From positions 248,001 through 312,000 of the forward strand of contig NZ_MUHU01000008.1 of NCBI RefSeq assembly GCF_002105195.1: a DNA stretch of 64,000 bases, in the 5' to 3' direction. The stretch is from Derxia lacustris. Its GTDB lineage: Bacteria; Pseudomonadota; Gammaproteobacteria; Burkholderiales; Burkholderiaceae_E. Below the pieces are notes generated by a model that did no database searches, was not told the origin of the DNA, and worked only from the letters and a program-made list of their open reading frames with translations. The translations under genes were made by a program, and so were the position numbers. This document shows, piece after piece, positions 54,139-64,000 of this stretch (positions are counted from its first letter, which is position 1; every line of letters begins with the position of its first letter).

Positions 54139-57100
54139 TCAGAGGCTGTCGTCGCCGGCGCCCGACTCGGCGACCAGCGTCGCCTCGAGCGAGCGGAAGC
54201 CGCGCACGCAGGAGAAGTACTCGGCCGCGTTGGCGATCTCGAAGCCGACCCGGATCAGGTCGCGCGCCTGCTGATGCTCGTCGCGCCGCTTGTAGATCTG
54301 CGCCAGCGTGAGCAGCGCCTTGGCCTTGTAGAGCTTGAGGTCGTAGAGCGCGGCGATCTCGGCGCTGGTCACCGCCTCGCGCGCCGAGAGCTTGGTTTCG
54401 CCCTGGCTCAGCAGCACGCAGGCGCGCACCAGATGGGCGGCGGCCTGGATGCGCGGCATGCCCATGTCGAGCCCGTACTGCTCGACCACCTCGATCTGGC
54501 GATAGGACTCGGTATGCGACCGCGACGGATCGGCCGCCGTCCGCAGCCGCACCAGCGTGAGCAGGGCCAGCATGTGCACATCCTCATGGCCGCCGCGCTG
54601 GGCCACGGCGATCGCTTCCAGCGCCAGCGCGATCGCCTCCTGGCCCCGGTCGGGCGCCAGCGCCATGTGCAGATCGGCCTGGCACTTGAGCACGAAGGCG
54701 GTGGCGCGCGACCGGTTGTGCTTGCGGAAGCCCGCCAGCGCGGTCTCGTAGCGCCGCGCGGCCGAGTGGTATTCGCCGCCCAGATGCTCGATCAGGCCGA
54801 GGTGGAACTCGGCGATCAGGCGCGGCACCGGATGCTCGTCATGCCGGCGCGCGATGTCCTTGAGCAGCTGGACCGCCGAATGCGCGCGGCCGCGCTCGAT
54901 GCGCACCAGCGCCAGTTGCAGCAGCAGCCGGACATGCAGCGGACCGGTGTCGTCGCATTCGATGCCGCGCACCGCGCGCAAGGCCAGGTTGAGCAGCGCT
55001 TCGGCGTCTTCCAGCTTGCCCTGGGTCAGGCTCATCACGCCGCATTCGGCATACAGCCAGACCAGTTCGCCGCGATGGAAGAAGCCGCTGCCGCCGGCTT
55101 GCGGCTGGGCGTCCTGCAGGGTCTGGGCGCGATGGGTGATCCAGCGGATCAGCCGGCGGTATTCCTCCATGTGGCCGATCGGCTGCTGGCGATCCGAGGA
55201 ATGCGTCTGCGCCGCGATGTGCGACAGCACGCCGACCGAATAGGTCGAGCGCGCCACGAAGTAGGCGGCGCGCAGGGCCTGGAATTCGCGCAGCCGGTCG
55301 CGTCCGGGGGGCGCGACCGCGATGCCGTCGTCGGCCGGCGCGTCGTCGTCGTCCTTCGGCGGATCGACCCAGGCATTGGCATAGCCGGGCGCGAGCGCGT
55401 AGCGGCTGAGCGACTTGATGAGCCGGCGGATCTTGCGGTGCGCATCGGTCGACAGCGTCGGGATTTCGTCGGGCTGGGAGGCGTAGAGCGAGGTCGTGAA
55501 CTGATCCCACTCGATGCCCTCGATGTCGCGCCCGCCCATCATGCGGATGAAGTGGCGCTGGATCATGCGATGCACCGTGTAGCGCGGCGGCTGGTCGTCG
55601 TCCGGCGCGATGGGGTCTCCCACATGACGGCGCCGGGTGCCGGCGCCGCCGAGCTGGCGCGGCGCCAGCCGGAGCGCAAGACAGCGGTGGACCGCGATCT
55701 CGGTCATCGCGCCGATCAGGGCGGTCAGCTTTTGCTCGATCTTTTCATCGCCGCGACCGTAGCCGGCCGGCGCGGCTCGGAGCTGGCGCAGCCACTCGAG
55801 CGCAAGCGTGCGGATCGCCGGGCACTGGTCGAGCACCGCGACTTCGACCGGATGCGAGAACACCGACAGATGCCAGAGGATTTCCTCGGTCAGTCGCCAG
55901 CTGATGCGGATCGGCCGGCCGGAAGCGGGCGCGAGCCGCTGGCGCTCTTCCGCCGTGAGCCGCGGGTCGAGCCAGTGGGTCAGGATGGCGCCGCATTCGC
56001 CGCCCAGCAGCCAGGCTTCATTGCGCTGATGCAGCAGGGCCCAGCGGTCGTGCACATGGTGGATGGCGACGGCTGGCGTGCGTTCATGGGTGCGCGCGGC
56101 GAGCGTGACGGCGGTGGTGTCGAGCCAGCCGACCAGCCGGGCGTCGGCGCGGTCGGCGGTGTCGGAACTGCCCGCGCATTCCTCGGCGGCCAGCGCCAGC
56201 AGCAGCGTGAGCGCGATGCGGTTGCCGGCGACCGCGTGATGCAGCTGCACCAGCTTCCGATCGATCTCGCCGTCCGGCGCGACCGGCCCGATGAAGGCAG
56301 CGGCCACCTCGCGCGCCAGACTGCGCTGCGGCACATGCACATGCACCGCCGGATCGTTGCGGTCGAGCGGCGCAATGCCGCGCCGGACCAGCCTCGGCTC
56401 GCGTTCATAGCGCTCGGCCGTCTCGATGGCGCCGAGGCGACGCAGCGCCTGCGGACCGGCGCCCTCGGCCGGCTGGCCGGACAGCAGCAGGGACTGCGGC
56501 ACATGGCGGTCGTCGCAGAACACCATGAAGTCGATGGGCAGCAGGCGGTAGCGCGGATCGGTCAGGAGCGCCAGCAGGCGGGCCAGCTGGCCGTTCTTGG
56601 GCTGGCCGTCGGCATCGAACAGCACGCCCACGTTGGACAGCACCAGCAGCACGCGCTCGGCGCATTTCTCGCCGGCCCGCCGGCGCTGCCCGTCCTTGAC
56701 CGCCAGCCGGTCGAGCGCCTGTTCGAATCGTCCGAGCAGATTGCCGATGGCCGGACGCGGCTCGGCGGCGAGCTCAGGATCGATGACGCCGGTCAGCACC
56801 TCGACCACGTTCGACACATCGCAGAGGTAGTTGAGGCTGATGAGACCGGTACGCCAGTGGCACTTGCGGCCGCGCGTCGGCGCGAGCAGGTCTTGCAGCG
56901 GCATCAGCAGCGCCTCGGGCCGATGCAGCACCAGCTGGTCGAACATGCTGCCCCGGCCGCTGCCGCGCGGAAACGGCAGCAGCAGCAGGCGCCGGCCGTC
57001 GTTGCGCTGAAAGCCGGCATGGCTGCGCAGGCTGTCGGCGAGCCGGTGCCAGCGCGGATCGTCCACGGCAATGGCGGCGGTCGGGGCCGACTCCACGGCG

Positions 57101-58956
57101 CGGAAGTGCATCCGCTCCGGGAGCCCGGCCTGCGACTGCCCTGCCGCGCATGCGGCGAGTGCCGGCGCCATGTGGCAGTACACCGCGGGCTCGCGGTCGC
57201 CGGCCGCGATCGGCGCGCGCGTGGCGACCGGATCGGCCGGCCTGAGGGTGCGCCGGGCCCAGGTGGACATGAACCGGGCTTCGGTGACGAGACGGGCGCA
57301 GAGAAAGCCGCTCACCACCGAGGAGCTGATCTCGTTGAGCAGCAGCATGAGTTCGCTCGTGCAGTCGCGCGCCTCCTGCGGCCGGTCGATGCACAGATCG
57401 ACGATGGCATTGAACAGCCGGCATTCGGCGTCGATGGCATGGGCTTCCGAGCCCGGCCGGTCGGTGGGCTGACCGTCCATGTGGCGGGGCGCCCGCAGCG
57501 TGAACTTGTCGCGCGTCAGCAGGGGCAGCGGCCCGCTGTCCGCCTTCCACCGCATGAGCGCCTCGAGATGCTTGCGCACCCGCTTGAGCTGGTCGGTGAA
57601 CTGGCAGAGCCAGCTTTCCTTGCCGGCGTTGGCCGGATCGTCGACCTGCGGGCTGTCATGGCCGTAGTGGATGGTGTGGATGCCGTAGCGCACCAGCGCA
57701 TCGATCTTGTCGCTGACCAGCTCGCTCGGCTGCAGGGCCGCGGGCATCAGCGCCACGCCCAGCCGGTCGGTGCGGCGTGGCGCAAAGCTCATGAACTCGC
57801 GCAGCGGCCGCAGCACGTCGTCCTCCGAGATGCCGGAGCCGATGTAGAGCAGGGGATTGGCGCCGAACAGCGTGCGGATGGCGTTGTCGAGCAGATCGCG
57901 GCGCTGAGAAGGCCGCAGATAGCGCTCCTGGTAGTCGCGCTCGGACGCGATGATGGTTCGCGGCTCGTCGATGGCGCCGTGCAGGTGCATCACCATCGCA
58001 TGCCGGCGCCGGCCTTCGAGCGCGAAGGCGACGGCGCGCCCGGTGTGCTCGGGCGCAAGGCTGAAGCTGTCGTAATGCCGGTCGATCGCATCCTCGGTGG
58101 CGTCGGCGGGCGTGCCGGCAGCTGGCCGATTCCAGGCGGCGATGCTGAGCGCGCGTTCGATTTCGAGGTCGTAGTTGGTGGTGGCGAAGCGCCGGATCTG
58201 CATGTCGTGCAGCAGTTGCGCGATGGCGGAATCGGCGCGGTTGGAATGCAGCTCGTCGACGGTCCGGGGCTCGGTGTCGGCCTGGCCGGCGATCACGCGC
58301 AGCAGGTGCCGGCGCGCCGGCAGCGGCCCTGGCGGCAGCGCGCCGACGCTGGCCTGCAACGGCGCTTGCAAGCCCTTGCTGCCCAGCCGCTTCCAGGCGG
58401 CTGCCAGTGCGTTGTCGCGATGCGTGCTGTCCTTCAGCAGCCGGTCGTAGATCTCGGCCAGCGACCGGACCTCCCTTGGGTTGCGCTTGTGCAGCGTTTT
58501 TTCGCCCTGGACCGCCAGATCGAGAATGTCGGCGCAGAGCTGGAGCAGCAGCAGCGGCCGCTTGCGCGCATGTTCGGGCAGCGGGTCGGGCGGCTGGCGC
58601 TTGCCGTCGCGCGGGCCGATCACGCCGAGGTCGTGCTCCAGCGTGCGCAGCCGCGAGCCGATGCGCGCATGCGTCTGCTCCAGCCCGAGATAGCGCTCCG
58701 GGTCGATCCTGGCCACTTCCACCAGCGTCTGGCGCACGAGATCGATCCACGAGATGCGGCCATAGGCCATCGACACGCCGGCCCCCAGAAACGCCACCAG
58801 CCGTCCGTTGATCGCGGCGCGCGCGACGATTTCGCGGCCGTGGCGCTCGATGACGACCGGATTGAGCGCGTCGTAGACCTCGTGATCGAGATAGGGCCAG
58901 GTCACCTGCGCTTCGCGGTCAAGCGGCGCGCGGGCGGTCTCGACGGGCTTCGTCAT
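54139..58956 (-). CDS. SIR2-STAND-TPR protein, likely anti-phage NADase
   Basis: Very large protein of 1605 residues. The N-terminal SIR2-like domain (about 40-440) keeps the NAD-site motifs: FLGAGVS at 56-62, TTNYD at 259-263, LHG with H326 at 325-327 and YIGSGISEDD at 371-380. A central STAND-like NTPase (about 640-830) has a degenerate P-loop, PFPRGSGRGS at 661-670, where Arg replaces the usual Lys, a Walker B-like strand RVLLVLSNVGVLFD and a sensor-like FMVFCDDRHVP. The C-terminal third (about 1230-1590) is helical with TPR-like repeats, typical of the sensing part. This order matches defence proteins that bind a phage product and then destroy NAD. A ribosome binding site GAGGA precedes the ATG at 58956. 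No partner genes are present. Confidence 0.8.
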   Translation of the reverse strand: MTKPVETARAPLDREAQVTWPYLDHEVYDALNPVVIERHGREIVARAAINGRLVAFLGAGVSMAYGRISWIDLVRQTLVEVARIDPERYLGLEQTHARIGSRLRTLEHDLGVIGPRDGKRQPPDPLPEHARKRPLLLLQLCADILDLAVQGEKTLHKRNPREVRSLAEIYDRLLKDSTHRDNALAAAWKRLGSKGLQAPLQASVGALPPGPLPARRHLLRVIAGQADTEPRTVDELHSNRADSAIAQLLHDMQIRRFATTNYDLEIERALSIAAWNRPAAGTPADATEDAIDRHYDSFSLAPEHTGRAVAFALEGRRRHAMVMHLHGAIDEPRTIIASERDYQERYLRPSQRRDLLDNAIRTLFGANPLLYIGSGISEDDVLRPLREFMSFAPRRTDRLGVALMPAALQPSELVSDKIDALVRYGIHTIHYGHDSPQVDDPANAGKESWLCQFTDQLKRVRKHLEALMRWKADSGPLPLLTRDKFTLRAPRHMDGQPTDRPGSEAHAIDAECRLFNAIVDLCIDRPQEARDCTSELMLLLNEISSSVVSGFLCARLVTEARFMSTWARRTLRPADPVATRAPIAAGDREPAVYCHMAPALAACAAGQSQAGLPERMHFRAVESAPTAAIAVDDPRWHRLADSLRSHAGFQRNDGRRLLLLPFPRGSGRGSMFDQLVLHRPEALLMPLQDLLAPTRGRKCHWRTGLISLNYLCDVSNVVEVLTGVIDPELAAEPRPAIGNLLGRFEQALDRLAVKDGQRRRAGEKCAERVLLVLSNVGVLFDADGQPKNGQLARLLALLTDPRYRLLPIDFMVFCDDRHVPQSLLLSGQPAEGAGPQALRRLGAIETAERYEREPRLVRRGIAPLDRNDPAVHVHVPQRSLAREVAAAFIGPVAPDGEIDRKLVQLHHAVAGNRIALTLLLALAAEECAGSSDTADRADARLVGWLDTTAVTLAARTHERTPAVAIHHVHDRWALLHQRNEAWLLGGECGAILTHWLDPRLTAEERQRLAPASGRPIRISWRLTEEILWHLSVFSHPVEVAVLDQCPAIRTLALEWLRQLRAAPAGYGRGDEKIEQKLTALIGAMTEIAVHRCLALRLAPRQLGGAGTRRRHVGDPIAPDDDQPPRYTVHRMIQRHFIRMMGGRDIEGIEWDQFTTSLYASQPDEIPTLSTDAHRKIRRLIKSLSRYALAPGYANAWVDPPKDDDDAPADDGIAVAPPGRDRLREFQALRAAYFVARSTYSVGVLSHIAAQTHSSDRQQPIGHMEEYRRLIRWITHRAQTLQDAQPQAGGSGFFHRGELVWLYAECGVMSLTQGKLEDAEALLNLALRAVRGIECDDTGPLHVRLLLQLALVRIERGRAHSAVQLLKDIARRHDEHPVPRLIAEFHLGLIEHLGGEYHSAARRYETALAGFRKHNRSRATAFVLKCQADLHMALAPDRGQEAIALALEAIAVAQRGGHEDVHMLALLTLVRLRTAADPSRSHTESYRQIEVVEQYGLDMGMPRIQAAAHLVRACVLLSQGETKLSAREAVTSAEIAALYDLKLYKAKALLTLAQIYKRRDEHQQARDLIRVGFEIANAAEYFSCVRGFRSLEATLVAESGAGDDSL

Positions 58957-59091
58957 GGCGAATCCTCGGGCGCGGCAGGGAGGGGAGCGTCGACGGCGGA
59001 CGCCGAACAGGCCGGGATCGCGCCTGCAAACGACTATGCCGGCGCTGCTGCACTGCGGCAGCCCGGATGTTTCTGGCCGCCCGGGTTCGCA

Positions 59092-59113
59092 CGCTGCGGG
59101 AAGTCCCGCAGCG
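59092..59113. promoter_or_regulatory. 22-base perfect palindrome, possible operator
   Basis: Arms CGCTGCGGGA (59092-59101) and TCCCGCAGCG (59104-59113) are exact inverted copies with two bases between. It lies in the 240-base gap between the divergent SIR2-STAND gene and the H4MPT operon. The tight spacing favours a protein-binding site for a dimer rather than an RNA hairpin. No T-run follows, so it is not an intrinsic terminator. Confidence 0.5.
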
Positions 59114-59196
59114 CGGGACGTCATCCGAGGGCAGGCTCCTTGCTAAATCCCGCACCCGGCAGCCGCATCCGCGCGCGCCGCCATCCGGGGAGCGAC

Positions 59197-59568
59197 ATGG
59201 AATTGACCGTTTACGACGAGGCCGCCGTCCGCGCCAGGCTGGCGGCCGAGCTGCCGCACTGGACCTACGAAGACGGCTGGATCCGCCGTAAGTACCGTAC
59301 CGAAGGCTGGAAGGGCACGCTGATGGTGGTGAACACCGTCGGCCATCTGGCCGAGGCGGCCTGGCATCACCCCGATCTGGCGGTGAGCTATGCCTTCGTG
59401 ATCGTCAAGCTGGTCACGCACTCGCACAAGGGCGTCACCGAGCGCGACTTCGCGCTGGCCCGCAAGATCGAGGAGGTCGTGCTGTGGCAGCCCGGCCTCG
59501 ACGGCGGCGCGCTCGAAGGCACGCCGGCCGACCAACGTTTCCGATATCTCAAGTACGACGCCGCATGA
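59197..59568 (+). CDS. pterin-4a-carbinolamine dehydratase-like protein
   Basis: Protein of 123 residues of the PCD/DcoH fold: AELPHWTYEDGWIRRKY, the dehydratase motif region NTVGHLAEAAWHHPDLAVSYAFVIVKL (read as AEAAWHHPDLAVSY) with its His pair, and LVTHSHKGVTERDFALA. In methylotrophs a gene of this family (pcd) belongs to the H4MPT gene set and is thought to act in pterin biosynthesis rather than in phenylalanine hydroxylation. GGGGAG precedes the ATG. Its stop overlaps the start of the next gene (ATGA), which places it in the same operon. Confidence 0.88.
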   Translation: MELTVYDEAAVRARLAAELPHWTYEDGWIRRKYRTEGWKGTLMVVNTVGHLAEAAWHHPDLAVSYAFVIVKLVTHSHKGVTERDFALARKIEEVVLWQPGLDGGALEGTPADQRFRYLKYDAA

Positions 59569-60668
59569 ACGCACTGCTCGACCTCACCACGCGCATGGCG
59601 CAGGCCTATGCGCAACCCGAACGACGCCCGCTCGCCAGCGCTCCGGCCGCTGCCGACTGGCCGCTGCCGGCCGCGCGGCCGGCCCAGGTGCGCGCCAGTG
59701 CGCCGGGCCGGCTGCATCTGGGCTTCCTCGATCCGACGGCGACGCTCGGCCGGCGCTTCGGCAGCATCGGTCTGGTCATCGACGGCTTCGCGACCGAACT
59801 CACGCTTGCGCGCGGGGTCAGCGACAGCTTCAGCGCCGATGACGAAGCGGCACGGCGCGAACTGTCGCGGGCTGAACAGGTTGTAACGCGCCTTCGTACT
59901 GTCACGGGCGCGACCGCGCCGCTCGCGCTGCGGCTCCATCAGGTCTTGCCCGCACATGCGGGCTTCGGCTCGGGCACGCAGCTGGCGCTTGCCATCGGTC
60001 ATGCGTTTGCGCGCTTGCAGGGACTTTCCCTGAGCACGACGCAGATCGCCGGACTGCTCGGCCGCGCGCAACGCTCGGGCGTGGGCGTGGCCGGCTTCGA
60101 TCAGGGCGGCTTTCTGGTCGATGGCGGCCATGCCGCGTCGGCCGCCGCGGGCGCGCGCGCCGATGCCGCGCCGCCGATCCTGGCGCGCGCCGCCTTCCCC
60201 GAGGACTGGGCGGTGATCCTGGTGCTCGACGACTGCGGCCCCGGCTTGCACGGCGAGGCTGAGAAACAGGCCATCGCCACGCTGCCGCCCTTCGGCCGGG
60301 CCCAGGCGGCGGATGTCTGCCATCAGGTGCTGATGCGGGTGCTGCCGGGCCTGCTCACGCGCGACTTCGGCGCCTTTGCCGACGGCATCACCGCCGTGCA
60401 AAGAGCCATCGGCGAGCACTTCGCGCCGGCCCAGGGCGGCAGCATGTTCACCAGTGCGCGGGTGGCGCGCGCGGTCGAATGGATCGCCACGCGCACCCGC
60501 GCCGGCATCGGCCAGAGCAGCTGGGGCCCGACCGGTTTCGCCTTCGTGGAAACCCGCGCCGAGGCCGAAGCCGTGACCGCCGAAGCGCGTGCGGCGGGCC
60601 TGATACCGGCCGGTGTTCAGGTCCGGATCGTGCAAGGGCGCAATACCGGCGCCCGTATCGCGGCCTGA
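59565..60668 (+). CDS. mptG: beta-ribofuranosylaminobenzene 5'-phosphate synthase (MptG)
   Basis: Enzyme of 367 residues of the GHMP-kinase-like family. It makes the C-riboside of 4-aminobenzoate, the first committed step of methanopterin synthesis. The start APGRLHLGFLDPTATLGRRFGSIGLVID (read as APGRLHLGFLDPTATLGR) and the Gly-rich GFGSGTQLALAIGHA are typical. Substrates by family knowledge are p-aminobenzoate and phosphoribosyl pyrophosphate. The ATG at 59565 overlaps the preceding stop; an earlier ATG in frame at 59484 lies inside the dehydratase gene. Confidence 0.9.
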   Translation: MNALLDLTTRMAQAYAQPERRPLASAPAAADWPLPAARPAQVRASAPGRLHLGFLDPTATLGRRFGSIGLVIDGFATELTLARGVSDSFSADDEAARRELSRAEQVVTRLRTVTGATAPLALRLHQVLPAHAGFGSGTQLALAIGHAFARLQGLSLSTTQIAGLLGRAQRSGVGVAGFDQGGFLVDGGHAASAAAGARADAAPPILARAAFPEDWAVILVLDDCGPGLHGEAEKQAIATLPPFGRAQAADVCHQVLMRVLPGLLTRDFGAFADGITAVQRAIGEHFAPAQGGSMFTSARVARAVEWIATRTRAGIGQSSWGPTGFAFVETRAEAEAVTAEARAAGLIPAGVQVRIVQGRNTGARIAA

Positions 60669-60748
60669 CTCCGCGAGCCAGCGGCGCCGTTTCATCAGAC
60701 CGATGCGGGCCGCATGCACGGCACCGCGCCAGCCAAGAGGGACGCCAC

Positions 60749-61657
60749 GTGGAACGCCGCTTCATTCTTCACATGCTCACGCCGGGACGGCAGATGAGCC
60801 CCTTCGACGTCAACATGGCCGTCGATGCCGGCTACGAGGTCGTCGTGCCGTATTGCGAGGTGGAAACCGCGCAGGTTCGCGGCCTGGTGCAGGACGCGAT
60901 CTTTTCGCGCGGGCCCAAGGGCGTGGCCCGGACCGGCGTGTTCATCGGCGGGCGCGACGTGGTCGAGGCGGTCGACATGCTCGACGCTGCACGCGCTGCC
61001 ATGGTTCCGCCGTTCGAGGTGTCGGTCTTCGCCGATCCGAGCGGCTCGTTCACCACCGCCGCCGCCATGGTCGCGGCCACCGAGCGCCAGCTGCGCAAGG
61101 CGCACGGCACCGACTTTGCGGGCAAGCGGGTGCTGGTCGCGGGCGGCACCGGGCCGGTCGGCCGCATCGTCGCGCTGCTGTGCGAGCAGCTCGGTGCAAA
61201 GGTTTTCATCGCCAGCCATCGCGGCGCCGCCCATGCGGCCGAAAGCGCCGATGCGACCAATGCGCGCTTTGGCGGCACGGTGCAGGGCGCCGACGCTTCC
61301 ACCGTCGAGGCGCGGCGCGAGCAGCTGGCCCAGAGCGAGGTGGTGCTGGCCTGCGCCGCCGCCGGCGTGCAGGTGGTCACGGCCGACGATCTGGCCGCTG
61401 CCGGCAGCAAGCTGCTGGTGGCCGCCGACGTGAATGCCGTGCCGCCCGAAGGCGTGGCCGGCGTGGGCGTGATGGACGACGGCAAGCCGGTGCCCGGCAC
61501 GCGCGCGGTCGGCATCGGCGCGCTGGCCATCGGCAACGTCAAGTACGGCACCCAGAACGGCCTGTTCGTGCGCATGCGCGAGGCCGGCAAGCCGCAGTAC
61601 CTGAGCTTTCCCGAGGCGCTGGCGCTGGCGCGCGAACTCGTCGCCGCCAAGGCCTGA
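60749..61657 (+). CDS. mtdB: methylene-H4MPT dehydrogenase MtdB
   Basis: NAD(P)-dependent enzyme of 302 residues that oxidises methylene-tetrahydromethanopterin to the methenyl form, the second step of formaldehyde oxidation by this route. The N-terminal substrate part reads ILHMLTPGRQMSPFDVNMAVDAGYE (seen as LTPGRQMSPFDVNMA), and the Rossmann motif is VLVAGGTGPVGRI. The start is a GTG at 60749 with AGAGG eight bases upstream; no ATG opens the conserved N-terminus. Confidence 0.92.
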   Translation: MERRFILHMLTPGRQMSPFDVNMAVDAGYEVVVPYCEVETAQVRGLVQDAIFSRGPKGVARTGVFIGGRDVVEAVDMLDAARAAMVPPFEVSVFADPSGSFTTAAAMVAATERQLRKAHGTDFAGKRVLVAGGTGPVGRIVALLCEQLGAKVFIASHRGAAHAAESADATNARFGGTVQGADASTVEARREQLAQSEVVLACAAAGVQVVTADDLAAAGSKLLVAADVNAVPPEGVAGVGVMDDGKPVPGTRAVGIGALAIGNVKYGTQNGLFVRMREAGKPQYLSFPEALALARELVAAKA

Positions 61658-61689
61658 CCGGCGGCGTGACCCAGTCGGGGAGGGGAAAG

Positions 61690-62838
61690 ATGATTGCGGT
61701 AGCGGGATTGTCGGCGCGTCTGCTGGCCGAGTCGGGCCGGGGCGCGGGCATTCCGGTGCTGGCGCTCGACTTGTTCGGCGACCGCGACACGCTGCGCGCA
61801 TCGCGGCGCTGGCAGGGCATTGGCGATGCCGCCGGCATGCGCATCTCGCCGCAGGCGCTGGTCGCGGCGCTCAAGGCCGGCCGGCGCGATGGCGGGCTGG
61901 CCGGCTGGGTGCCGGGCGGTGGTTTCGAGGCCGAGCCGGCGCTCATCGAGCGCGGTGCGGCGGCGGCCACGCTGATCGGCAATCCGGGCTGGGTCTGGCG
62001 CCGCGTCAAGACGCCGTCGATCTTCTTCGTGCGGCTGAGCGCGCTGGGCATTCCGCATCCGGAAACCCGCGCCGACCGGCCGCCCGAGACGGCGGGCTGG
62101 CTGCGCAAATGCGCGAGCGGCACCGGCGGCTGGCATGTACAGCCGCTCGACGCGGTGGTCGATGCCGGCGCCTGCGACTGCTTTCATCAGCGCGTCGTGC
62201 CCGGCGTGCCGATGTCGGCGCTGTTCCTGGCCAACGGCAGCGAGGTGCGCATCGTCGGCTTCAACCGCCAGCTGGTCGGTCCCTGCGGCGACCGGCCCTT
62301 CGTGTATCGCGGCGTGATCGGCCCGGTGGCGCTGCCGGCGCGGCTGGCGGCGCGCATCGGCGATGCGCTGCGCGCGCTGGTCGGCGAGTTCGGGCTGGTC
62401 GGCCTCAACAGCCTCGACTTCATGGCCAACGGCGACGACTTCTCGGTACTCGAGATCAACCCGCGGCCCTCGGCCAGCATGGCGCTGCATGACGACGCCG
62501 TGCCCGGCGGGCTGCTGCAGGCGCATGTCGAGGCCTGCCGCGCGCGCCGGCTGCCGCCGCTGGCGCTCGCGCCGCGCGACCGCACCGCCATCCGTGGCTG
62601 CGAGACCGTGTTCGCGCAGCGCGCGCTGACGCTCGACGAGCCGGCCATCGTCTGGCTGGAGCGGCGCGGCTGGTGCCATGACATCCCGGCCGGCGCGGCC
62701 ACGCTGCTGCCCGACCAGCCGATCTGCACCGTCAGCGCCGATGCGCCCGATGCCGACACGGTGGCGGGCCTGCTCGCCATCCGCCGCGACGCGGTGCTGA
62801 AAACGCTCAACAATTTTTCGGAGCATTCCCATGTCTGA
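61690..62838 (+). CDS. ATP-grasp protein of the H4MPT cluster
   Basis: Protein of 382 residues related to the ATP-grasp carboligases that recur in bacterial H4MPT clusters. An N-terminal Rossmann-like part (AVAGLSARLLAESGRGAGIPVLALDLFGD, read as GLSARLLAESGR) is followed by the ATP-grasp core with KCASGTGG (a likely ATP loop Lys), HQRVVPG and the metal-site segment FSVLEINPRPSASMALHD. The substrate is unknown; a role in making or modifying the methanopterin side chain is inferred from context. AGGGGA precedes the ATG. Overlaps mch by eight bases. Confidence 0.85.
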   Translation: MIAVAGLSARLLAESGRGAGIPVLALDLFGDRDTLRASRRWQGIGDAAGMRISPQALVAALKAGRRDGGLAGWVPGGGFEAEPALIERGAAAATLIGNPGWVWRRVKTPSIFFVRLSALGIPHPETRADRPPETAGWLRKCASGTGGWHVQPLDAVVDAGACDCFHQRVVPGVPMSALFLANGSEVRIVGFNRQLVGPCGDRPFVYRGVIGPVALPARLAARIGDALRALVGEFGLVGLNSLDFMANGDDFSVLEINPRPSASMALHDDAVPGGLLQAHVEACRARRLPPLALAPRDRTAIRGCETVFAQRALTLDEPAIVWLERRGWCHDIPAGAATLLPDQPICTVSADAPDADTVAGLLAIRRDAVLKTLNNFSEHSHV

Positions 62839-63835
62839 TTCCCTCGCCGCCTTTGCCGGCGCGACCAGCAGCGTCAACGCCAATGCGGTGGCCCATGTGC
62901 AAGACCTGATCGACCGCGCCGACGATCTCGGCATCGAGGTCGACACGCTCGACAACGGCGTCACCGTGGTCGACGCCGGCATCGATGTGCGCGGCAGTGT
63001 CGAGGCCGGGCTCATCGTCGGCCGCATCTGCATGGGCGGGCTCGGCAGCGTCGAGCTGACCGCGCGCGCCGAGCACGGCTGGCCGAGCTGGCTGGAAGTG
63101 GCGAGCAGCCAGCCGGTGCTGGCCTGCCTGGCCAGCCAGTACGCGGGCTGGAGCCTGTCGGCCAGCAAGGAGGAGGGCGGCGGGCGCAAGTTCTTTGCGC
63201 TCGGCTCGGGCCCGGCGCGCGCGCTGGCGGCCAAGGAGCCGCTGTTCGGCGAGCTGGGCTACCGCGACGAAGTGGGGCCGAGCGCCATCGTGCTGGAGGT
63301 GGATCGCCGGCCGCCGCCGATCATCGTCGACAAGCTGCTGCGCGACTGCGGTCTGGCGCCCGAGCAGCTCACCGTGATTCTCACGCCCACGACCAGTCTC
63401 GCCGGCACCACCCAGGTGGTGGCGCGGGTGCTGGAGGTGGCGCTGCACAAGGCGCATGTGCTGGGCTTTCCGCTCGACCTGATCGTCGAGGGCAATGCGA
63501 GCGCGCCGCTGCCGCCGCCGAGCCGCGACGGCGTCGAGGCGATGGGTCGCACCAACGACGCCATCCTCTACGGCGGCCGGGTGCATCTCACCGTGGGCGC
63601 TGACGACACCGCCGCGCGCGATCTGGCGCGCCAGTTGCCGTCGCTCAATTCGCGCGATTACGGCCGCTCCTTCGCCGAGGTGTTCAAGGCGGTGGAGTTC
63701 GATTTCTACAAGATCGATGGCGCGCTGTTCGCGCCGGCCGAGGTCTGGGTCAGCAGCCTGGAAAGCGGTCGCACCTGGCATGCCGGCCGGCTCGACATGA
63801 ACCTGCTTGGCGCGCTCTGGCTGGCGGAGGGCTGA
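62831..63835 (+). CDS. mch: methenyl-H4MPT cyclohydrolase
   Basis: Enzyme of 334 residues that hydrolyses methenyl-H4MPT to N5-formyl-H4MPT. Family motifs: SVNANAVAHVQDLI at the start, GRICMGGLGSVEL, GSGPARALAAKEPLF and the end segment KIDGALFAPAEVWV. Length agrees with bacterial and archaeal Mch. The gene overlaps the ATP-grasp gene before it by eight bases, and its stop overlaps the next start by one base (TGATG). Confidence 0.94.
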   Translation: MSDSLAAFAGATSSVNANAVAHVQDLIDRADDLGIEVDTLDNGVTVVDAGIDVRGSVEAGLIVGRICMGGLGSVELTARAEHGWPSWLEVASSQPVLACLASQYAGWSLSASKEEGGGRKFFALGSGPARALAAKEPLFGELGYRDEVGPSAIVLEVDRRPPPIIVDKLLRDCGLAPEQLTVILTPTTSLAGTTQVVARVLEVALHKAHVLGFPLDLIVEGNASAPLPPPSRDGVEAMGRTNDAILYGGRVHLTVGADDTAARDLARQLPSLNSRDYGRSFAEVFKAVEFDFYKIDGALFAPAEVWVSSLESGRTWHAGRLDMNLLGALWLAEG

Positions 63836-64000
63836 TGACTTTAGCGGGCAATCAGGGCGCCGGCCTGCGCGTCGCGATCATGACCGACGAGACCGGCTGG
63901 CACACGGCCAAGCTGCAGAAGGCGCTGCGCGCGCGTGGCCATGAAGGCCGCTGCGTCGATCTGGCCGATTGCCGCATCGACACCACGCGCAGCGCGCACG
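63835..64000 (+). CDS. second ATP-grasp protein of the H4MPT cluster (partial)
   Basis: The first 55 residues of a gene that runs past the window end. The start LRVAIMTDETGWHTAKLQKALRARGHEG (seen as VAIMTDETGWHTAKLQKALRARG) is the N-terminal lobe of RimK-like ATP-grasp ligases, which in this gene neighbourhood are thought to add glutamate to the pterin cofactor. The catalytic part is outside the window, so the call rests on the N-terminus and on the coupling to mch (TGATG). Confidence 0.7.
   Translation, partial: MTLAGNQGAGLRVAIMTDETGWHTAKLQKALRARGHEGRCVDLADCRIDTTRSAH

Follow-up and report, generated by a model that had tools for sequence, protein, structure and literature searches.

What do the two ATP-grasp genes in a row of one-carbon genes of Derxia lacustris do, and is the pathway around them complete? 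The row stands at the 3' end of the window, by which we mean the whole stretch of 64,000 nucleotides analysed here. It is very likely (probability about 0.9) that the row forms the 5' portion of a complete and conventional formaldehyde-oxidation island of the tetrahydromethanopterin (H4MPT)/methylofuran (MYFR) type, with three ATP-grasp enzymes: MyfA, MyfB and an MfnD-like protein.

All six genes that an earlier note had read at positions 59197 to 64000 on one strand were found, on the plus strand. The first gene of the island is pcd (59197..59568), of the pterin-4a-carbinolamine dehydratase family (PF01329, E 2.5e-25; NF002017, 82.6 bits, cut-off 80). It is followed by mptG (59565..60668), for the beta-ribofuranosylaminobenzene 5'-phosphate synthase of H4MPT biosynthesis (TIGR00144, 153 bits, cut-off 113.5; in the profile search, 167 bits with NF040726, under the cut-off of 328). 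The methylene-H4MPT dehydrogenase gene mtdB (60749..61657; PF09176 Mpt_N, E 1.3e-37) is assumed to start at a GTG codon, and this start is uncertain. The first ATP-grasp gene (61690..62838; PF02655, 65 bits, cut-off 23.2) lies between mtdB and mch, the methenyl-H4MPT cyclohydrolase gene (62831..63835; TIGR03120, 381 bits, cut-off 229). Only the start of the second ATP-grasp gene is in the window (63835..64000; RimK family TIGR00768, 171 bits, cut-off 143); its end is at C57:312803, or 64803 in the extended window numbering. The note had also described overlaps between the genes. They are present for pcd/mptG (4 nt), the first ATP-grasp gene/mch (8 nt), and mch/the second ATP-grasp gene (1 nt), but mtdB is flanked by gaps of 80 nt on the 5' side and 32 nt on the 3' side.

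The assignment of these genes to an H4MPT-linked C1 pathway came with a suggested search for fae and fhc elsewhere in the genome. Both are on this contig shortly past the end of the window, fae twice and fhc as fhcBADC, so this is not a genome that lacks both, the case in which another role for the genes had been foreseen. Past the window edge, the contig carries orf7 (CitG-like), fae, mfnB, mfnE, mfnF, and a third ATP-grasp gene, and further orf17, fhcBADC, the second fae, and pabB. Both fae genes, mch, fhcA, fhcC, and fhcD score above their profile cut-offs, and fhcB is matched over most of its length (143 bits, cut-off 328). The mfnF gene is above the cut-off of TIGR03123, mfnB was recognized by PF04476, mfnE reached only 43 bits of 300, and orf17 reached 81 bits (cut-off 180). 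An afpA-like gene and a DUF6513 gene are also among the linked H4MPT and methylofuran biosynthesis genes. With fae, mtdB, mch, and fhcABCD all in the genome and the biosynthesis genes for both cofactors linked to them, the island is an ordinary copy of the known bacterial gene cluster for H4MPT-linked formaldehyde oxidation. This well-studied pathway is thereby extended to Derxia.

The gene order is conserved. Eighty named loci were recovered with the family of the first ATP-grasp protein, and a match was present for mch in 74, for myfB in 71, for mptG in 69, and for mtdB in 62; several loci are too short to contain all genes. The order mptG-mtdB-myfA-mch-myfB-orf7 is kept, including in Methylobacillus sp. 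MM3 (L097), and it is also seen, as mptG-mtdB-orfY-mch-orf5-orf7, in Paraburkholderia, Variovorax, and other loci. Because of this conservation among the 80 loci, a chance grouping of the genes is ruled out. In a congener of Derxia lacustris, the order pcd-mptG-mtdB-myfA-mch-myfB-orf7-fae is identical and MyfA is 84-85% identical. The gene list printed for Methylophilaceae, "mptG, mtdB, orfY, mch, orf5,7,17,1,9" (PMC4109929), describes the same gene set as in Derxia, with equal order from mptG to orf7, and the Burkholderia islands (PMC5020050) have the gene set in common with Derxia. Unlike in the islands of these two papers, fhc in Derxia is ~13 kb downstream of fae, with a few unrelated-looking genes in between, and a sigma-54 regulator gene follows fae.

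Judged from gene order and homology, the first ATP-grasp gene is orfY, that is, myfA. The earlier note had regarded its reaction as not settled. This is largely out of date, and the label of the gene is corrected here: OrfY is Mfla_1659 of Methylobacillus flagellatus, later renamed MyfA, and a mutant has been published (PMC8141765). According to Hemmann et al. 2021 (PMC8141765), deletion of myfA in M. flagellatus led to the loss of methylofuran and the accumulation of MYFR-Glu0 and MYFR-Glu1, and deletion with LC-MS assigned both ATP-grasp genes to glutamate addition on methylofuran, not on H4MPT. Thus, the knockout and mass spectrometry that the note had proposed have already been done for both genes, each in a relative. 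The Derxia gene is in the same slot between mtdB and mch, with the same neighbours, and is homologous to the Methylobacillus gene there. The two proteins belong to different species, and Derxia, known here from its sequence, was compared via Methylobacillus sp. MM3, a stand-in congener for M. flagellatus, whose homologue shows 35-36% identity. The "orfY" that appears in PMC8153426 is an unrelated Klebsiella protein.

Two alignments of MyfA were made. A1 includes 20 of 22 extracted proteins, and A2 includes 51 of the 76 proteins extracted from the 80 loci, plus the window protein; among the 25 left out of A2, L053 and L062 have an internal stop, L093 has an odd length, and the rest were removed for thinning. 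K140, D243, E255, and N257, which we take to be the catalytic residues from general knowledge of the ATP-grasp fold, are invariant in 52/52 aligned MyfA sequences. The predicted model of MyfA (pLDDT 94.9) shows the fold of the PurD/PurK/PylC class over the whole chain, including the C-terminal domain. All 50 solved neighbours listed are ATP-grasp proteins of the PurD/PurT/PurK/biotin carboxylase/PylC class (Z 26.7-31.9, 315-360 aligned residues, rmsd 3.1-4.5). RimK-class folds are absent among these 50 matches listed, which is not evidence of a difference. The class of the model fits glutamate addition to an amine. Fold likeness of this kind is not informative on the substrate. A sequence search for a solved structure of a MyfA relative found none, the best match being pyruvate carboxylase (E 0.032).

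The second ATP-grasp gene, RimK/MptN-like and directly downstream of mch, is by its family and position orf5/myfB, the predicted polyglutamate ligase of methylofuran. Its product reached 198 bits with the MptN profile NF040720, under the cut-off of 350. In PMC8141765, MyfB/Orf5 is MexAM1_META1p1764 of M. extorquens, to which the Derxia protein is likened by family and gene position: both are RimK/MptN-like, and both genes directly follow mch and precede orf7 and fae. The same paper reports that the orf5 mutant contains MYFR-Glu2 and that MyfB of a relative is active in vitro. Both ATP-grasp genes belong to the methylofuran branch, not to that of H4MPT itself.

The third ATP-grasp protein of Derxia, Orf1, is an MfnD-like protein of 350 aa encoded elsewhere in the island. 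MfnD is the tyramine:L-glutamate ligase of archaeal methanofuran biosynthesis. Compared with archaeal MfnD, both MyfA and Orf1 match PF02655, and both missed the MfnD equivalog NF040722 (cut-off 400 bits; MyfA 17.6 bits, Orf1 39.6 bits). The profiles of MyfA and the MfnD-like proteins align with an hhalign probability of 98.5 over 202 columns; the MfnD-like alignment (A3) includes 8 of 12 rows plus the Derxia protein, and L104 has an internal stop. If Orf1 forms the first glutamate-tyramine bond, as is most likely, the methylofuran of Derxia should be of the tyramine type. No clear mfnA was detected in the genome, where the profile search gave weak, non-specific matches only, and the evidence for the tyramine prediction is thus the MfnD-like gene, together with the four betaproteobacteria for which published tests exist. 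The best candidate for mfnA, on C18, was rejected: it reached 77.5 bits (cut-off 299), and its score as a diaminobutyrate decarboxylase was higher (183.8 bits), but this too falls far short of that cut-off. By ORF reading, its surroundings contain malonate decarboxylase- and TRAP transporter-like genes, not a methylotrophy cluster.

In the proposed mechanism, Fae would join formaldehyde and H4MPT, MtdB and Mch would carry out the oxidation to formyl-H4MPT, and FhcABCD would pass the formyl group to bound methylofuran and release formate. MyfA would most likely activate the carboxylate of glutamate as an acyl phosphate and, by an amine-directed chemistry that we infer, most likely place the glutamate on the free amino group of MYFR-Glu1, leading to MYFR-Glu2. 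MyfB would then lengthen the chain from the C-terminal side. By analogy, the Derxia proteins presumably act like their counterparts in relatives. The present analysis itself shows which genes are there, their order, families and co-occurrence, as well as the fold class of the MyfA model, which is a prediction, and the conservation of the catalytic residues. The build-up of MYFR-Glu0 in the MyfA mutant (PMC8141765) is unexplained by a simple one-step role.

The occurrence of MyfA follows that of mch. In the order sample, MyfA is present in exactly the 22 of 150 genomes with mch, at most 200 bp from mch by the listed coordinates; this count leaves out three partial MyfA matches (G078, G137, and G148; E 3e-4 to 5e-4). 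All 22 genomes also carry an MfnD-like paralogue. In the phylum sample, where only matches over 300 bits (MyfA) or 250 bits (MfnD-like) were counted, MyfA is present in 15/18 mch genomes and 0/380 others. Raw tallies there were 256/398 genomes for the MyfA profile and 341/398 for the MfnD-like profile, the rest being other ATP-grasp proteins under 60 bits. Seven MfnD-like matches were counted, one of which, in G386, contains a TGA, and 9 of the 15 MyfA genomes have none.

The position of the first ATP-grasp gene among H4MPT genes, its presence in all 22 genomes with mch in the order sample, and its listing among genes commonly linked to H4MPT biosynthesis (PMC3615186) could suggest that it acts in H4MPT biosynthesis, for example by attaching a group to the side chain of the pterin. 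Such a role is very improbable and is rejected here, as intermediates of methylofuran build up in the M. flagellatus mutant (PMC8141765), which indicates a block in the MYFR chain. In the same source, the dephospho-H4MPT of M. extorquens is described as without the terminal hydroxyglutarate that an MptN-type glutamate ligase would extend. It is somewhat unlikely that MyfA adds the first glutamate too or instead, chiefly where the MfnD-like paralogue is absent, and that the two-enzyme split is restricted to MfnD-bearing lineages. The MyfA genomes of the phylum sample with no MfnD-like match, the MYFR-Glu0 in the mutant, the relatedness of the two profiles, and the statement in PMC8141765 that no enzyme is known for the tyrosine-glutamate bond are consistent with it. 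However, the MfnD-like paralogue is present in Derxia, where the two-enzyme split is thus expected, as it is in the order sample in the 22 genomes with mch. MYFR-Glu1 also accumulates in the mutant (PMC8141765); in M. flagellatus at least, the first glutamate can thus be added by another enzyme.

A conversion of MYFR-Glu1 to MYFR-Glu2 by MyfA in a working pathway is preferred for Derxia. A literature search found no report of Derxia growing on methanol, which would agree with a decayed or silent remnant, but the named island genes are without stops, the catalytic residues of MyfA are intact, the congener keeps the order from pcd to fae with a closely similar MyfA, and seven PQQ alcohol dehydrogenase genes of the genome score above the family cut-off. 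It is therefore hardly probable that the genes are a remnant.

The lasting value of the locus is in the in vitro reaction and linkage of MyfA, and in the start of the glutamate chain in mch lineages without MyfA, which are the only new lead. Three mch genomes of the phylum sample lack MyfA, with no MfnD-like gene detected either; MyfA is thus not always present with the pathway. They belong to two bacterial genera and keep mch, myfB, and orf7. In one genus, mch directly follows mtdB, a clean gap, and fhc, sought in one MyfA-less genus, was found beside these genes. The other genus has the island mch-orf5-orf7-fae-fae-orf17, as in Methylosinus trichosporium, which was the sole strain without detectable methylofuran among the nine of the 2021 survey and which, according to a 2013 report, has a genome without orfY. 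It is possible, if tentative, that in these lineages the side chain of methylofuran is started differently, by another ligase or by MyfB on a different core; if true, the presence or absence of MyfA predicts the structure of the coenzyme. A replacement ligase was not found in eight genomes searched, including these three. Each of the three has MyfB and one weaker RimK-type gene, as has the MyfA-bearing G176. PF02655 matches in them score 22-31 bits, versus 46-68 bits for MyfA and 89-101 bits for MfnD-like proteins elsewhere.

Six genes of the tetrahydromethanopterin (H4MPT)-linked C1 pathway lie on the plus strand at the end of the window: pcd (59197-59568), mptG (59565-60668), mtdB (60749-61657), the first ATP-grasp gene (ATP-grasp 1, 61690-62838), mch (62831-63835), and the second ATP-grasp gene (ATP-grasp 2), which starts at 63835 and continues past the window end to C57:312803 (C57, the same contig in its own numbering, on which the window spans 248001-312000). 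The ORF calls agree with the place and strand reported in the earlier note, and family searches back every gene name. Overlaps, claimed for the whole series, were observed between some neighbors (1 to 8 nt), but mtdB is flanked by gaps of 80 nt and 32 nt.

The contig was examined further at C57:305000-343000. Directly past the window end is orf7, a CitG-family gene (C57:312800-313708; PF01874, 210 bits, full-length), followed downstream by the first fae (C57:313763-314272) and a sigma-54 regulator gene with a GAF domain (C57:315039-317174). Family searches placed an AfpA/DmrB-like flavoprotein gene at C57:317291-317908 and a DUF6513 dihydropteroate-synthase-like gene at C57:317887-319287. DUF447 (C57:319288-319869) and mfnB (C57:319869-320633) come next. 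Between mfnB and the next three genes lie a small ORF and two genes that look unrelated, all identified by inspection alone. The three genes are on the minus strand: mfnE (C57:323451-324158), mfnF (C57:324155-325384), and a third ATP-grasp gene (C57:325377-326429). The plus strand then carries orf17 (C57:326430-327137), fhcB (C57:327276-328640), fhcA (C57:328637-330331), fhcD (C57:330349-331263), fhcC (C57:331260-332075), the second fae (C57:332239-332769), and pabB (C57:332793-334727). Because fhcBADC and two copies of fae are present on the same contig past the window end, the assignment of these genes to the H4MPT C1 pathway stands. The Derxia island is ordinary, complete, and already explained.

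Among the best 80 of 365 named loci found with the ATP-grasp 1 family, one order recurs: mptG-mtdB-ATP-grasp-mch-myfB-orf7-fae. The neighbors are mch (74/80), myfB (71/80), orf7 (70/80), mptG (69/80), fae (67/80), and mtdB (62/80). Some of the 80 cover only a short stretch, and mtdB is not seen in several from Methylococcaceae. As exceptions, a myfA-like gene precedes orf7 and mptG in five Thauera- or Proteobacteria-titled loci (L057, L059, L063, L065, and L080). The locus from Methylobacillus sp. MM3 (L097) reads fhcDAB, mptG, mtdB, the ATP-grasp 1 homologue, mch, myfB, orf7. A Methylophilaceae list in the accessible text of PMC4109929 reads "fhcABCD, mptG, mtdB, orfY, mch, orf5,7,17,1,9". 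Judged from these gene orders, ATP-grasp 1 is OrfY and ATP-grasp 2 is Orf5. The same list makes Orf1 the most likely identity of the third, MfnD-like ATP-grasp, Orf7 that of the CitG-like gene, and Orf9 that of mfnF; the Orf9 name is used for mfnF in the PMC8141765 text as well.

In the available text of Hemmann et al. 2021 (PMC8141765), OrfY and Orf5 were renamed MyfA and MyfB. An orfY mutant (Mfla_1659) of M. flagellatus lost methylofuran (MYFR) and accumulated the forms with zero and one glutamate, an orf5 mutant of M. extorquens contained the two-glutamate form, and MyfB produced polyglutamate in vitro. The authors inferred that MyfA adds a glutamate on the N-terminal side and MyfB extends the C-terminus. 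Every betaproteobacterium tested there made the tyramine form. The earlier note had called the reaction of the first ATP-grasp protein unsettled. This applies to no more than MyfA's in vitro chemistry; the observation was correct, and its interpretation is partly outdated.

The predicted MyfA model is confident (pLDDT 94.9, pTM 0.93). The solved structures that match it best, with Z 26.7-31.9 and 10-17% identity, are GAR synthetase (PurD), PurT, PurK, biotin carboxylase, and PylC. Sequence matches assign MyfB to the RimK class. K140, D243, E255, and N257 of MyfA are invariant in 52/52 aligned rows; they are presumably the nucleotide and metal ligands of this fold. PurD and PylC work by activating the carboxylate of an amino acid and coupling it to an amine. 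By analogy, the predicted fold fits an amine-directed role in which MyfA would attach glutamate at the amino group of the one-glutamate form, MYFR-Glu1, the step that the 2021 authors inferred from the intermediates.

In the order sample (150 genomes), mch is present in 22. MyfA was matched in 25 at E <= 0.001; after three partial matches (E 3e-4 to 5e-4) were dropped, the MyfA genomes are exactly the 22 mch genomes. By the listed coordinates, MyfA is <200 bp from mch in each. The one same-genus genome listed (G058) has a MyfA 85% identical. An MfnD-like gene is found at a separate place in all 22, and without mch in G056 (strong) and G069 (weak). The G056 gene (L189, G056:C1:2239317-2240411) scores 291 bits in a genome with neither mch nor a full MyfA match. 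It may be a relic, or a ligase of the methanofuran type that acts outside the pathway.

In the phylum sample (398 genomes), mch is present in 18. With scoring limited to the four or five top candidates of each genome, so that a few could be missed, MyfA (>300 bits) was found in 15 of these 18 and in no other genome. On the same scoring, an MfnD-like match >250 bits occurs in six of the 15 MyfA genomes and in none of the other nine; G056 again has one without mch.

The three MyfA-less mch genomes are G153 and G207, from one genus, and G330, from another. Scoring of all candidates there revealed only partial MyfA matches of 19-29 bits. Two profile searches of these genomes found no MfnD-like gene, and no obvious extra RimK-type gene was seen. 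Two of the three group pcd, fhcB, fhcA, fhcD, mptG, mtdB, mch, myfB, orf7, and fae in one place, where mtdB and mch are immediate neighbors. The G330 island, mch-myfB-orf7-fae-fae-orf17, is the same as that of Methylosinus trichosporium OB3b, whose genome is reported to lack orfY in the accessible part of PMC3615186. Methylofuran escaped detection in M. trichosporium in the 2021 survey, and the available PMC8141765 text does not name MyfA absence as the reason; we infer this link here. These genomes provide a modest lead.

CitG transfers a phosphorylated ribosyl group, so ribosyl transfer in H4MPT biosynthesis would be a natural guess for Orf7. A literature search for tetrahydromethanopterin together with triphosphoribosyl found no paper. 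A gene matching the sigma-54 activator is present in 37 of the best 80 of 365 loci, mostly likewise after fae. The activator is a putative pathway regulator.

Directly upstream of the island, a 1661-aa minus-strand ORF (window 54139-59124) carries a SIR2-like domain (PF13289), along with a TPR match that does not reach its cut-off. Its PADLOC matches are weak (best, ThsA, 35.7 bits) and point to a possible defence protein. A plus-strand ORF across the same interval, running into pcd, appears spurious. In the source genome, seven PQQ alcohol dehydrogenase genes exceed the family cut-off (contigs C1, C2, C8, C19, and C57); they could be a formaldehyde source for the H4MPT pathway. A lanmodulin homologue in Derxia lacustris is mentioned in the accessible text of a 2025 paper (PMC12482762). 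The assembly has a contamination estimate of 6.82%. Matches on C4 and C10 are identical at identical coordinates, and those on C12 and C17 have identical scores, which suggests duplicated stretches in the assembly.
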